A stretch of DNA of 64,000 bases. Source: Allomuricauda sp. ARW1Y1. GTDB taxonomy: Bacteria; Bacteroidota; Bacteroidia; Flavobacteriales; Flavobacteriaceae. This document shows, piece by piece, positions 27,617 through 52,573 of the stretch (positions are counted from its first letter, which is position 1; the number at the start of each line of letters is the position of its first letter). The notes under the pieces were generated by a model, which was not told the origin of the DNA, searched no databases, and was given only the letters and a program-made list of their open reading frames with translations. The stretch lies in the NCBI RefSeq assembly GCF_013407935.1, contig NZ_JACBZU010000001.1:310001-374000 (forward strand), in the 5' to 3' direction. The translations under genes and the position numbers were made by a program.

Positions 27617-27690
27617 CGCTTTCGGTACAGTTCAAAAAAAATCATCAATAAAAAAACACCCCGTAGATGGCGTGCTTTTACAACTTTTGG

Positions 27691-27764
27691 TGGAGAATAC
27701 CGTCCCGATGGTTATCGGGAGAACCGGTGGCCTTTCCGAACGCCTTCGGAACGCTCTAGCCAAC
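27691..27764 (-). pseudogene. tRNA-Ala-like fragment A, 3' part only
   Basis: On the minus strand it matches tRNA-Ala from GTTGGCTAGAGCG in the D-arm through the variable region, T-arm and acceptor 3' strand ending GTATTCTCC, but the first about 14 nt are missing. The anticodon arm is replaced by a TTCCGAA/TTCGGAA hairpin (27734-27751) and five bases of the T-loop by a TCCCGAT/ATCGGGA hairpin (27703-27720). It cannot make a functional tRNA. Confidence 0.8.
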
Positions 27765-27783
27765 ATCCTTCCCGACCAGAAAC

Positions 27784-28011
27784 TCAATATATTTCCTGCT
27801 TTTTCTTCCTTTTAAAATCCTTTTCCCTGTTCATTGCTTCGCTCCGGGTGAAATACCTTTCTGTATACTTTACCTCCCAATCCTTTGCAGTTTTAGTGTA
27901 TTTGGACCTGCCGCTATTATGGCGGTTCATCCTGTCATCCAAATCTTGACTGTGCCCCACATAATATCGGTCCAACGATTTACTATAAATGATGTAGACA
28001 AAAAATTCCAT
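27784..28011 (-). pseudogene. GIY-YIG nuclease domain gene, frameshifted copy A
   Basis: Small GIY-YIG-fold protein, 75 residues. The motif is VYIIYS...YYVGHS, with the catalytic arginine probably in RMNRHNSG and the glutamate in RSEAM. Compared with copy B it has an extra A in a run of A (GAAAAAGC for GAAAAGC on the minus strand), which changes KRKKSRKYIEFLVG into KRKKKQEIY and stops early. The core domain is complete, so activity cannot be ruled out. The ATG directly follows the T-tract of a hairpin. Confidence 0.8.
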
Positions 28012-28012
28012 A

Positions 28013-28042
28013 AAAAAAGCACCTCACAAATGAGGTGCTTTT
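28013..28042 (-). terminator. Terminator hairpin between tRNA fragment B and GIY-YIG copy A
   Basis: Minus strand AAAAGCACCTCA TTTG TGAGGTGCTTTTTTT. The same hairpin lies behind the intact tRNA at 28373. Its T-tract ends at the ATG of copy A. Confidence 0.75.
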
Positions 28043-28051
28043 ACGTTTTTG

Positions 28052-28125
28052 TGGAGAATACCGTCCCGATGGTTATCGGGAGAACCGGTGGCCTTTCCGA
28101 ACGCCTTCGGAACGCTCTAGCCAAC
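28052..28125 (-). pseudogene. tRNA-Ala-like fragment B, 3' part only
   Basis: Identical to fragment A, including both replacement hairpins, over the whole tRNA-like part. It overlaps the last 9 bases of GIY-YIG copy B: the TAG stop of that gene is the TAG of GTTGGCTAGAGC in the D-arm remnant. Confidence 0.8.
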
Positions 28126-28371
28126 ATCCTTCCCGACCAGAAACTCAATATATTTCCTGCTTTTCTTCCTTTTAATATCCTTTTCCCGAGCCATTGCTTC
28201 ACTCCTGGCAGAAAACCTTTCTGTATACTTTACCTCCCAATCCCTTGCAATTTTAGTGTATTTGGACCTGCCACTATTATGGCGGTTCATCCTATCATCC
28301 AAATCTTGACTGTGGCCCACGTAATAACGGTCCAACGATTTACTATAAATGATGTAGACAAAATATTCCAT
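28117..28371 (-). CDS. GIY-YIG nuclease domain protein, intact copy B
   Basis: 84 residues from MEYFVYIIYSKSLDRYYVGHS; an upstream in-frame TTA/ATG extension to 28383 lies inside the terminator T-tract and is unlikely. GIY-YIG proteins of this size are single-domain nucleases of the UvrC/homing-endonuclease fold. Key residues: both tyrosines of the VYI..YYVG motif, R in RMNRH, E in RSEAMAREKD. The protein ends EFLVGKDVG, read into the tRNA fragment. No promoter or ribosome-binding site is visible; it lies 41 nt behind tRNA-Ala, beyond the tRNA terminator. Confidence 0.85.
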   Translation of the reverse strand: MEYFVYIIYSKSLDRYYVGHSQDLDDRMNRHNSGRSKYTKIARDWEVKYTERFSARSEAMAREKDIKRKKSRKYIEFLVGKDVG

Positions 28372-28372
28372 A

Positions 28373-28405
28373 AAAAAAAGCACCTCACAAATGAGGTGCT
28401 TTTAC
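28373..28405 (-). terminator. Terminator of tRNA-Ala
   Basis: Minus strand AAAAGCACCTCA TTTG TGAGGTGCTTTTTTTT, starting 8 nt after the tRNA. The U-tract runs straight into the ATG of GIY-YIG copy B. Confidence 0.8.
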
Positions 28406-28412
28406 GTTTTTG

Positions 28413-28486
28413 TGGAGAATACCGGATTCGAACCGGTGGCCTCTTGCCTGCCAGGCAAGCGCTCTAGCCAACTGAGCTAATCCCCC
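28413..28486 (-). tRNA. tRNA-Ala, anticodon GGC
   Basis: Complete cloverleaf on the minus strand: acceptor GGGGGAT/ATTCTCC with the alanine-specific G3-U70 pair, D-arm GCTCAGTTGGCTAGAGC, anticodon stem CTTGC/GCAAG with loop CTGGCAG (anticodon GGC), T-arm ACCGGTTCGAATCCGGT, discriminator A. The 3' CCA is not encoded. Confidence 0.95.
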
Positions 28487-51349: not shown

Positions 51350-51618
51350 CTTATGGGATATTTAAATCATTTCAAAAAGTTATCAATCATTCAATTATTC
51401 ATATCATTTGTCAAAAAGTAGATTTATCTAATGATTTTCGCTAAGCTTTAGTGAATTTTACCAATTCCTTTGGAGTTATTAACTGGATTCCATAGTTGTC
51501 AACAATCAAATTGTTGAGTATCTGTGGAAAACGCCCATGCTCTTTTGGTCATTCAACCGCCTGAATACTATAATTTTACTTTATCAAATAAATAAGGACT
51601 GCGCGCACAGTCCTTAAA

Positions 51619-51692
51619 AGCTCCGTAGCTCAATTGCATAGAGCAATGCTGAACGAAGGCATAGGTTGCAGGTTGGAATCCAGTCGGAGCTA
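51619..51692 (+). tRNA. tRNA-Arg(ACG)-like gene with unusual loops
   Basis: 74 nt folding as a cloverleaf: acceptor AGCTCCG/CGGAGCT (7 bp), D-stem GCTC/GAGC, anticodon stem ATGCT/GGCAT, variable AGGTT, T-stem GCAGG/CCAGT with one A-A mismatch, discriminator A. The anticodon loop reads GAACGAA (ACG at 34-36) but the invariant U33 is A. D-loop G18-G19 is G-C and T-loop TTCGAAT is TTGGAAT, so the 19-56 pair is swapped. Either a decayed tRNA-Arg or a tRNA-like RNA. A GGACTG/CAGTCC hairpin (51590-51613) precedes it. Confidence 0.5.
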
Positions 51693-51700
51693 CTTAAAGA

Positions 51701-51730
51701 GGGAGGAAAGTTTTCCTCCCTTTTCTATTT
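51701..51730 (+). terminator. Terminator of the tRNA-like gene
   Basis: Perfect GGGAGGAAA..TTTCCTCCC stem followed by TTTTCTATTT, 8 nt after the tRNA-like 3' end. It indicates a discrete short transcript. Confidence 0.8.
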
Positions 51731-51817
51731 ATAAAGATAGAGAAAAGTGTTTTTATCCTTAAACTCATTTTATTACAAATATGAACAAATTGATGTTTGA
51801 TCGATATTAACAGTTAT

Positions 51818-52573
51818 CTATCTAAACAATATCGCCGCAGCGCCAATGGCGGTGACAATCAAAATAAAGCGTTTGTAATTTTTCTCGTTGATTTTCTTCA
51901 CCAGAAAAACACCCAACAACAACCCAACAAAAATAGCAGGGAGCAATCGCAAGTTGATCAGCAGACTTTCCACGGTAATCGTTTTCCAAACAAAAACGTG
52001 AAAGGGCATTTTAAAAAGGTTGGTGATAAAAAACAGCCAAGCGGCAGTGCCCACAAACTCGTTTTTGGGCAAGCGCATCGCCAAAAAGAAAATATTGGTG
52101 AACGCTCCTGCCAAGTTTCCGATCATGGTGCATACTCCCGATAAAATCCCCATGGAACCCGAAAACAGCCAATGGGTGGGCACCTTTTTTGATTTTCGTC
52201 GGTCCCAAAACACCAGCATGCCCAAGCTAATGAAAATCACCACCACCATGGCCCATTTAAATTCGCGCTCGGGAAGGTCTTTTCCGATCAAGACCCCGAT
52301 AAGGATACCTAAAATCATCCAAGGCAAAAACCGCAGAATATATTTCCATTGGGTGTGTCGGTTGTAATAGATCACTGCAAACGTATCTCCTACAATCAAC
52401 AATGGGATAAAAAGCCCCGTAGAAGCCTTGGAACCGAACGCCAACGCCATCAAAGTCACATTAAAAATGGACATTCCCTTGAGTCCCGCTTTGGAAACCC
52501 CCATCAAAAAAACTGCGGTGGCGGCCATGGTCCATGCGGCTACGGAAATATCTGAGAAAGCGGAAAGAAACAT
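51818..52573 (-). CDS. TauE/SafE-family membrane transporter
   Basis: 251 residues with about seven to eight membrane segments (LKGMSIFNVTLMALAFGSK; LSGVCTMIGNLAGAFTN region). The family exports sulfite, sulfoacetate or other organic anions; the substrate here is not known. Monocistronic, 69 bp divergent from the SSS transporter. Confidence 0.87.
   Translation of the reverse strand: MFLSAFSDISVAAWTMAATAVFLMGVSKAGLKGMSIFNVTLMALAFGSKASTGLFIPLLIVGDTFAVIYYNRHTQWKYILRFLPWMILGILIGVLIGKDLPEREFKWAMVVVIFISLGMLVFWDRRKSKKVPTHWLFSGSMGILSGVCTMIGNLAGAFTNIFFLAMRLPKNEFVGTAAWLFFITNLFKMPFHVFVWKTITVESLLINLRLLPAIFVGLLLGVFLVKKINEKNYKRFILIVTAIGAAAILFR

Follow-up and report, generated by a model that had tools for sequence, protein, structure and literature searches.

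The window analysed here is a stretch of 64,000 nucleotides from the genome of Allomuricauda sp. ARW1Y1. On its minus strand a tRNA-Ala(GGC) gene is followed by a terminator, a first ORF (ORF1), a partial tRNA, a second terminator, ORF2, a second partial tRNA, and a last terminator. Two units of 361 bp can be recognised, each consisting of a terminator, an ORF for a GIY-YIG protein of the UPF0213 type, and a partial copy of the tRNA-Ala gene. This order had been proposed by the first-pass annotation, and it was confirmed by the sequence, by ARAGORN, and by matches to PF01541. The same is true for the motif GGAGAAT, which recurs in steps of 361 bp at positions 27692, 28053, and 28414. The features are listed below; the partial tRNA copies are denoted psi-tRNAs.

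28412..28486, minus strand: intact, promoter-proximal tRNA-Ala(GGC), the sole tRNA call of ARAGORN there
28376..28403, minus strand: terminator hairpin between the tRNA and ORF1 (28-nt arm in the repeat listing; sequence)
28117..28371, minus strand: GIY-YIG ORF of unit 1, 84 aa, ATG at 28371 (PF01541; invariant residues; ORF)
28051..28125, minus strand: psi-tRNA 1, partial tRNA-Ala from the D-loop to the acceptor 3' end (sequence; shuffle test; covariance-model match at 28086-28119)
28095..28112, minus strand: palindrome TTCCGAAGGCGTTCGGAA, which replaces the anticodon arm in psi-tRNA 1 (sequence; helix counted over 30 loci)
28064..28081, minus strand: palindrome TCCCGATAACCATCGGGA, which replaces the T-loop in psi-tRNA 1 (sequence)
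28015..28042, minus strand: terminator after psi-tRNA 1 (block identical to that after the tRNA)
27784..28011, minus strand: GIY-YIG ORF of unit 2 (distal), 75 aa, frameshifted near its 3' end (PF01541; translation compared with relatives)
27690..27764, minus strand: psi-tRNA 2, palindromes as in psi-tRNA 1 (sequence, repeats; covariance-model match at 27725-27758)
27734..27751, minus strand: anticodon-arm palindrome of psi-tRNA 2 (sequence)
27703..27720, minus strand: T-loop palindrome of psi-tRNA 2 (sequence)
27650..27680, minus strand: last terminator, followed by a chromosomal flank common to strain G041 (window compared with the G041 sequence)

The repeats within the window have identities of 91-92% over 218 and 142 nt, and the block of tRNA 3' end and terminator is identical in copies 1 and 2 (52/52). 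Both ORFs scored above the PF01541 cut-off of 22.6 bits, with 64.3 bits for unit 1 and 62.0 bits for unit 2. The stop codon TAG of the unit 1 ORF lies within the tRNA-derived D-loop sequence GTTGGCTAGAGCG, and the frameshift that had been noted in the distal ORF is indeed present near its end. The fragments had been described as the 3' strand of the tRNA. The 3' end is present, and its match in the downstream fragment had a score of 16.0, compared to a shuffled maximum of 10.0 (0/200 shuffles as high), but the fragments extend back to the D-loop. Because they also contain palindromes, they are not simply functional 3' ends that were pushed out. No integrase was found in the 361-bp unit, which has space only for the GIY-YIG ORF.

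The window unit was not found elsewhere in its own 3.5-Mb genome; the other DNA matches were tRNA sequence or short and weak. A link to tRNAs for all GIY-YIG genes was rejected, because four weaker homologues of the same genome (E 2.4e-12 to 2.2e-11) had no tRNA call in their 3.2-kb loci, and the link thus belongs to one subfamily. At another place in the window, 51619-51693 on the plus strand, a tRNA-Arg(acg) with an unusual T-loop TTGGAATC was called, and no remnant was seen by eye in 51350-51900.

Association with tRNA genes and structure of the remnants

From a single scan of genome contigs, the best 80 of 214 relatives were taken. A same-strand tRNA call was nearby in 58 of these, and in no case was a tRNA called on the opposite strand only. 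ARAGORN at times calls psi-tRNAs as tRNAs, and one of the 58 (L077) is such a miscalled psi-tRNA. For the other 22, a tRNA fragment was recognised by score in 19 and by eye in L075, while L095 and L114 were not convincing. A fragment of the same tRNA followed the ORF in 55 of the 62 loci with an upstream tRNA (0/200 shuffles as good), and in seven no remnant stood out clearly from the shuffles; this set includes congeners and at least one organism twice (L029 is apparently the same organism as L057). Among the 42 Ala loci of the best 80, the fragment score was 14 or higher in 29. The local tRNA was unbeaten by the tRNAs of other loci in 24 of these and beaten in five. Some labels had to be set by hand: L077 (called Ile) and L092 were assigned to Ala, L050 (matched to a Cys call) to Arg, and, by eye, L075 to Ala, while L095 and L114 were left without a label.

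In a sample of the phylum, a match at E 1e-8 or better was found in 184 of 296 genomes, with 0 to at least 19 matches per genome. The 40 loci that were fetched are hand-picked strong matches, including the most obvious arrays, and are thus not a random draw. In 33 of them a same-strand tRNA was called at most 300 bp upstream or 200 bp downstream, and in none on the opposite strand; the rough chance figure for an adjacent tRNA is 0.3%, assuming 50 tRNAs in 4 Mb. Five of the other seven (L169, L171, L181, L182, L185) show, by eye, a tRNA copy or a tRNA between ORFs, and in L168 and L195 the first ORF is at the contig edge. The target tRNAs are Ala, Asp, Asn, Met, Arg, Ser, Val, Gly, Pro, and Lys, and often arrays are present. 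It had been argued that copies at other tRNA genes should carry a fragment of that very tRNA. This was fulfilled in 24 of 33 phylum loci, in which the remnant of the same tRNA, often with a palindrome, scored above the best of 200 shuffles, but not in the remaining nine. The remnant and fragment of L181 (G337:C7) resemble what we take to be the 3' end of a tmRNA, and tmRNA may be a target as well. Phages as a vehicle were also considered and rejected: a single peptide pattern was used for one scan of viral contigs, and none of its 36 matches was a relative.

The commonest order is tRNA, ORF, and 3' remnant. A mirrored order also exists, in which a 5' remnant, often with a palindrome, precedes the ORF and the intact tRNA; examples are L043-L047, L049, L116, L119, L159, L161, and L163. 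In L042 (G056:C39) a tRNA-Arg was observed with a 5' remnant upstream and a palindrome-bearing copy after the ORF. In addition, psi-tRNA cassettes without any ORF are present in 9 of 30 loci of a related genus, denoted g2 (L206, L207, L208, L226, L227, L229, L230, L232, L235). In these the anticodon arm is replaced by a palindrome; they begin 70-90 bp upstream of the intact tRNA-Ala, and one to three occur in tandem.

The palindrome forms a helix of seven pairs. In 30 remnants (26 distinct) all 182 cells were paired, while slid controls reached at most 69.8%. Three helix pairs had changes on both sides, which was equalled by 104 of 500 shuffles. The number of cells with changes on both sides was 18, compared to a shuffled mean of 5.1, and was reached by none of the 500 shuffles; the measures other than the both-side pair count were reached by 0 to 6 of 500. 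The 30 rows were chosen by a pattern that restricts the five outer pairs, and therefore the inner two pairs and a C-G/U-A swap at pair 2 provide most of the free evidence. Remnants of the Ala type mostly have YCCCG..CGGGR or TTCCG..CGGAA, and other GC-rich palindromes are present at some Pro, Ser, Met, and Arg loci. A role of the palindrome as a genome-wide repeat was rejected: TCCCGA-N2-9-TCGGGA was found only 10 times in G000 (control 0) and 0-28 times across 71 genomes of the genus. The covariance model R1, which represents psi-tRNAs mainly of the Ala type, matched 33 places in 21 of the 71 genus genomes, and 31 of these are at most 1 kb away from a tRNA-Ala gene or fragment. The two exceptions are a weak match in G033 and a place beside a tRNA-Val in G011:C17. 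At the latter (L152:850-1100), an apparent D-loop palindrome encloses the intact tRNA-Val; it belongs to a psi-tRNA with both acceptor strands, the other loops of which contain palindromes as well.

The nuclease and its tRNA targets

The unit protein is a single GIY-YIG domain of 80 residues, and its structure was predicted with a pLDDT of 95. The best PDB match of the model was the UPF0213 protein 1zg2, which is also the nearest solved protein by sequence, followed by Slx1 and the catalytic domain of I-TevI; only 1zg2 had an E value below 0.001. GIY-YIG nucleases have conserved catalytic Tyr, Arg, and Glu residues, and Y6, Y17, R27, H31, and E63 are invariant in 38 rows. The ORF is under purifying selection, with a dN/dS of about 0.16 (51 pairs with a dS of 0.05-1.5).

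On a tree of 125 proteins, which does not contain L051, L029, L032, L035, and L038, the tRNA type together with the side required 31 changes, compared to a shuffled mean of 61.0 (0/200 as low). Most forks are unresolved because only 79 columns were available. One weakly supported cluster contains 7 of the 11 Asp rows and one Gly row, and its hosts belong to Bacteroidota, Cloacimonadota, Ignavibacteriota, and Calditrichota, with one unplaced record. The Pro and Ser(gga) rows and part of the Ser(gct) and Asn rows also group together across host families. No clustering was seen on this tree for the rows of tRNA-Val, Ser(tga), and the 5'-type Arg(tcg). Proteins of one lineage tend to share a tRNA target on this tree even when their hosts belong to different families.

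A conserved small nuclease could also be part of a domesticated host system, in which the protein and a tRNA-like hairpin RNA have a cellular role, e.g., in tRNA surveillance, transcript processing, or the control of DNA uptake, and have little mobility of their own. The selection on the ORF, the paired changes that keep the hairpin, and the fold, which is nearest to a solved UPF0213 protein, would fit to such a role, and a UPF0213-type nuclease of Neisseria (Ssn) reportedly acts on single-stranded DNA at palindromic repeats. The occurrence of the units, however, looks selfish. Within the genus, a GIY-YIG match at E 1e-8 or better was found in only 33 of 71 genomes, the own genome included, and not all of these are at tRNA-Ala. 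Broken copies, arrays, the many tRNA targets, and the range from none to at least 19 matches per genome give the same impression, and a host function is regarded as an unlikely explanation.

Growth of the arrays and comparison of empty and occupied sites

A comparison of the unit number at this tRNA in close relatives had been suggested. Two units are present in the window, three in strain G041 of the same species, and none in G010, G051, and G057, which have no GIY-YIG match and in which the tRNA is directly followed by a terminator like the last one of the window. In addition, G032 and G020 have two tandem copies each. The proximal units 1 and 2 of G041 are identical, and the flank past the last unit is the same as in the window. 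Unit 2 of the window is closest to unit 3 of G041 (97.9%), while unit 1 has 95.3% identity to unit 1 of G041, 93.2% to the unit of F. marinaquae, and 91.9% to its neighbour, unit 2. On a DNA tree, unit 1 does not fall into the group that contains unit 2 (moderate support, 88/92). Because it is not the sister of unit 2, two successive acquisitions, as had been proposed, are favoured, but recombination is not excluded.

Larger arrays are present at other loci. Five 315-bp units with 99.6-100% identity follow a tRNA-Asp in L158, and four 322-bp units follow a tRNA-Pro in L160; most units of L158, L160, and L161 are identical. The distal unit had been taken to be the oldest one, which turned out to be a tendency rather than a strict rule. 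It is the most divergent one in six of seven informative arrays (in L158 by one base), while in L162 it is the proximal unit that stands apart. Nine arrays of two units contain one that is broken or shortened; this is the distal one in six (L001, L056, L076, L082, L083, L112) and the proximal one in three (L039, L064, L077), and it is also distal in L163, L165, and L166. The tally leaves out L174, L179, and L187, and the proximal unit of L187 looks broken. These patterns suggest that newer units mostly joined an array at the end that faces the intact tRNA and that arrays also grow by tandem duplication.

The related genus g2 was searched with a Flavobacterium locus, and the tRNA-Ala was matched at E 1e-18 in 75 of 121 genomes. 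The best 30 loci were read, and 7 were occupied and 23 were empty. The test rests on the terminators and flanks; the 3' halves of the tRNA are too conserved to tell foreign from native. A terminator of the form AATACCC..GGGTATT lies between tRNA and ORF in six of the seven occupied loci, and follows the tRNA in none of the 23 empty ones. Past the remnant, five of the seven occupied loci continue with a terminator or flank homologous to the DNA directly behind the intact tRNA of empty relatives, while the sequence that follows the last remnant of L227 and L235 begins differently from an empty site. None of the new terminators in L206, L207, L228, L229, and L232 is the same as in the empty relative with which the locus was matched; the one of L206 is like those of L208, L218, and L223 and unlike that of its best-matching empty site, L222. 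Downstream of the units, the identities were 86.9% over 1174 bp with a shift of 358 bp (L206 and L222), 77.1% over 1212 bp with a shift of 365 bp (L229 and L226), 81.8% over 132 bp with a shift of 375 bp (L228 and L234), and 78.0% over 132 bp with a shift of 376 bp (L232 and L234). The upstream flanks of the pairs are 82-86% identical over 1038-1575 bp. As is expected of homing-endonuclease elements, the units are present or absent in a site-specific manner at a conserved tRNA, which is called intact beside them (no functional data).

This comparison showed that the g2 units of about 360 bp bring their own terminator and displace the old tRNA 3' end, which is still joined to the native flank. 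The first-pass annotation had proposed that the unit carries its own terminator and 3' end, inserts into the tRNA gene, rebuilds the tRNA, and displaces the old 3' end, and this is thereby supported. The D-arm had been named as the place of entry. Entry into the tRNA gene is supported, but the exact insertion point cannot be placed within the repeated tRNA sequence.

Plain tandem duplication would instead mean that the surplus tRNA copies decayed after a tRNA had been duplicated together with a resident adjacent nuclease gene. The near-identical units with constant spacing in L158 and L160 and the identical units of G041 and L161 indicate that this process explains part of these arrays, and the later amplification in G041 and L158 meets the criterion for tandem duplication. 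Duplication would also account for the same palindromes in both window remnants and for the terminators after tRNA and remnant, which at 18 of 33 loci are more alike than 95% of swapped pairs. It does not account for the g2 pairs. The terminator differs there and the shifts are only 358-376 bp with unmoved flanks on both sides, so that a duplication that carries long flanks, which had been named as the result that would refute entry, is not the explanation in the four pairs. Furthermore, other lineages are closer to unit 1 of the window than its neighbour unit 2 is, the same anatomy is found at many tRNA types and also mirrored, and the remnants have recurring palindromes instead of random decay. 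As the source of the units in general, duplication has only a small chance of being correct.

The tRNA-Ala(GGC) gene is also a site for islands in the genus. In G041 the intact tRNA is about 10.6 kb away from the units; an island and a 47-bp tRNA 3' fragment lie in between, and the units are found beyond this fragment (L132, G041:C1:508500-522500). In F. marinaquae (L053) the unit has the tRNA on one side and a left end resembling that of an island on the other; this locus was rejected as decisive for the order of events, because no far-end fragment was found. In L151 and L133 (G026, G017) a stretch of about 150 bp was observed after the tRNA-Ala end or fragment, which closes with a copy of the tRNA 3' end, AATCCGGTATTCTCCA, and is perhaps another tRNA-restoring element. 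Although the two island loci could be taken to indicate that the units are remnants of integrase islands from which everything except for the nuclease gene was deleted, this is very improbable, because the units have no integrase, the same minimal anatomy is found in many families, the remnants include the D-arm and palindromes in contrast to the clean 47-bp island fragment, and the shifts versus empty sites are only about 360 bp.

Proposed explanation and comparison with known systems

The explanation that is preferred, with a probability of roughly 0.7, is that the units are minimal, tRNA-specific, homing-like selfish cassettes without an integrase; cutting and autonomous mobility are inferred. 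The cassette would consist of a tRNA 3' end with terminator, the GIY-YIG ORF, and a palindrome-bearing partial tRNA, and it would settle in one particular tRNA gene. The incoming copy would provide the new 3' end and terminator, so that the tRNA stays intact, and the old 3' end and the native flank would end up downstream. For the window, this displacement is carried over by homology from the g2 comparison. In the mirror-image lineages, the architecture of which was described above, the 5' remnant, ORF, and intact tRNA would result in the corresponding way.

The start of the move can only be inferred. The nuclease would cut a hairpin-forming site, which may be either the intact tRNA gene of the empty allele or the palindrome in the remnant of the donor. 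Repair via recombination between the tRNA-homologous ends would then copy the unit in, and a conserved tRNA would therefore be a landing pad in any host. If intact tRNA genes were cut, the nuclease should also attack the rebuilt tRNA, and nothing that would confer immunity is visible; this speaks against cutting of the recipient. Cutting of the donor palindrome would avoid the puzzle that the rebuilt tRNA stays intact. The identity of the palindromes in both window remnants counts against the cassette explanation, because it is expected if the whole unit was duplicated. Because the ORF starts directly after the tRNA terminator, it is presumably expressed by read-through from the tRNA promoter.

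A more far-reaching version is put forward only tentatively and may well be wrong. Each cassette is about 310-370 bp long and has a single nuclease of 80 residues and a hairpin derived from a tRNA; such cassettes could be the smallest autonomous mobile DNA elements known, and their ORF-less relatives of about 85 bp might be mobilised by the nuclease. The cassettes would move via hairpins in tRNA genes, either single-stranded or extruded, and homology to the tRNA would offer them a landing pad everywhere. The side of the tRNA that they rebuild could be the 5' or the 3' one, and they would have diversified into tRNA-specific lineages in Bacteroidota and in neighbouring phyla.

Genes for tRNAs are classic landing sites of islands that carry an integrase. 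These use a tyrosine recombinase, restore the tRNA 3' end, and leave a 3' fragment at the far end. The cassettes also restore the 3' end and leave a 3' fragment at the far end, but they have no integrase and are about 30 times smaller than the 10.6-kb island of G041, their remnants include the D-arm and palindromes, and the 5' forms leave the other half. A far smaller agent thus appears to use tRNA genes without an integrase and to keep the gene intact by carrying part of it. If this is true, a large number of small GIY-YIG genes next to bacterial tRNAs is accounted for, and the choice of the target becomes testable, because the protein lineage tends to predict the tRNA that is used.

SegB of phage T4 is a GIY-YIG homing endonuclease in a tRNA gene cluster. 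The cassettes share the tie between a GIY-YIG nuclease and tRNA genes, but SegB is phage-borne, and we know of no rebuilt tRNA or remnant for it. The ORF-less palindrome copies that accompany nuclease-bearing cassettes are reminiscent of REP/RAYT systems and MITEs; unlike these, the cassettes have a GIY-YIG nuclease and not a Y1/HUH transposase, and the copies were seen beside tRNA genes. Like the Ssn-type UPF0213 proteins, the cassette protein is a single small GIY-YIG domain with palindromes beside its gene. The cognate palindromic repeat of Ssn has very many genomic copies, while the cassette genes are tied to tRNAs and their palindrome does not occur in hundreds of copies throughout the genome. 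To our knowledge, neither Ssn nor the mORFs of fungal mitochondria, discussed below, cover the targeting of tRNAs, the palindrome remnants, the 5' forms, and the ORF-less copies. No description of tRNA-linked GIY-YIG cassettes in bacteria was found in searches of open-licence papers. A term search in a 2006 paper on the GIY-YIG superfamily (PMC1564403) revealed three passages that mention tRNA, none of which concerned such cassettes.

The closest precedent are the mORFs (mobile endonuclease ORFs), which are found, for example, in atp6 of Allomyces and in atp6, atp9, cox2, and nad3 of Glomus (PMC3630166). In these, an endonuclease ORF that inserts into a gene supplies a new 3' end in place of the native one, which remains downstream (PMC3630166). 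Also the cassettes bring in a foreign 3' terminator and displace the native 3' end and flank, as was seen at five of seven g2 loci. In contrast to the mORFs described there, the cassettes target bacterial tRNA genes, have a unit length of about 310-370 bp, often carry palindromes in their remnants, and exist as mirror-image 5' forms, tandem arrays, and ORF-less copies. If the explanation is true, they represent a natural bacterial system for a mobility that rebuilds the target gene, as in fungal mitochondria.
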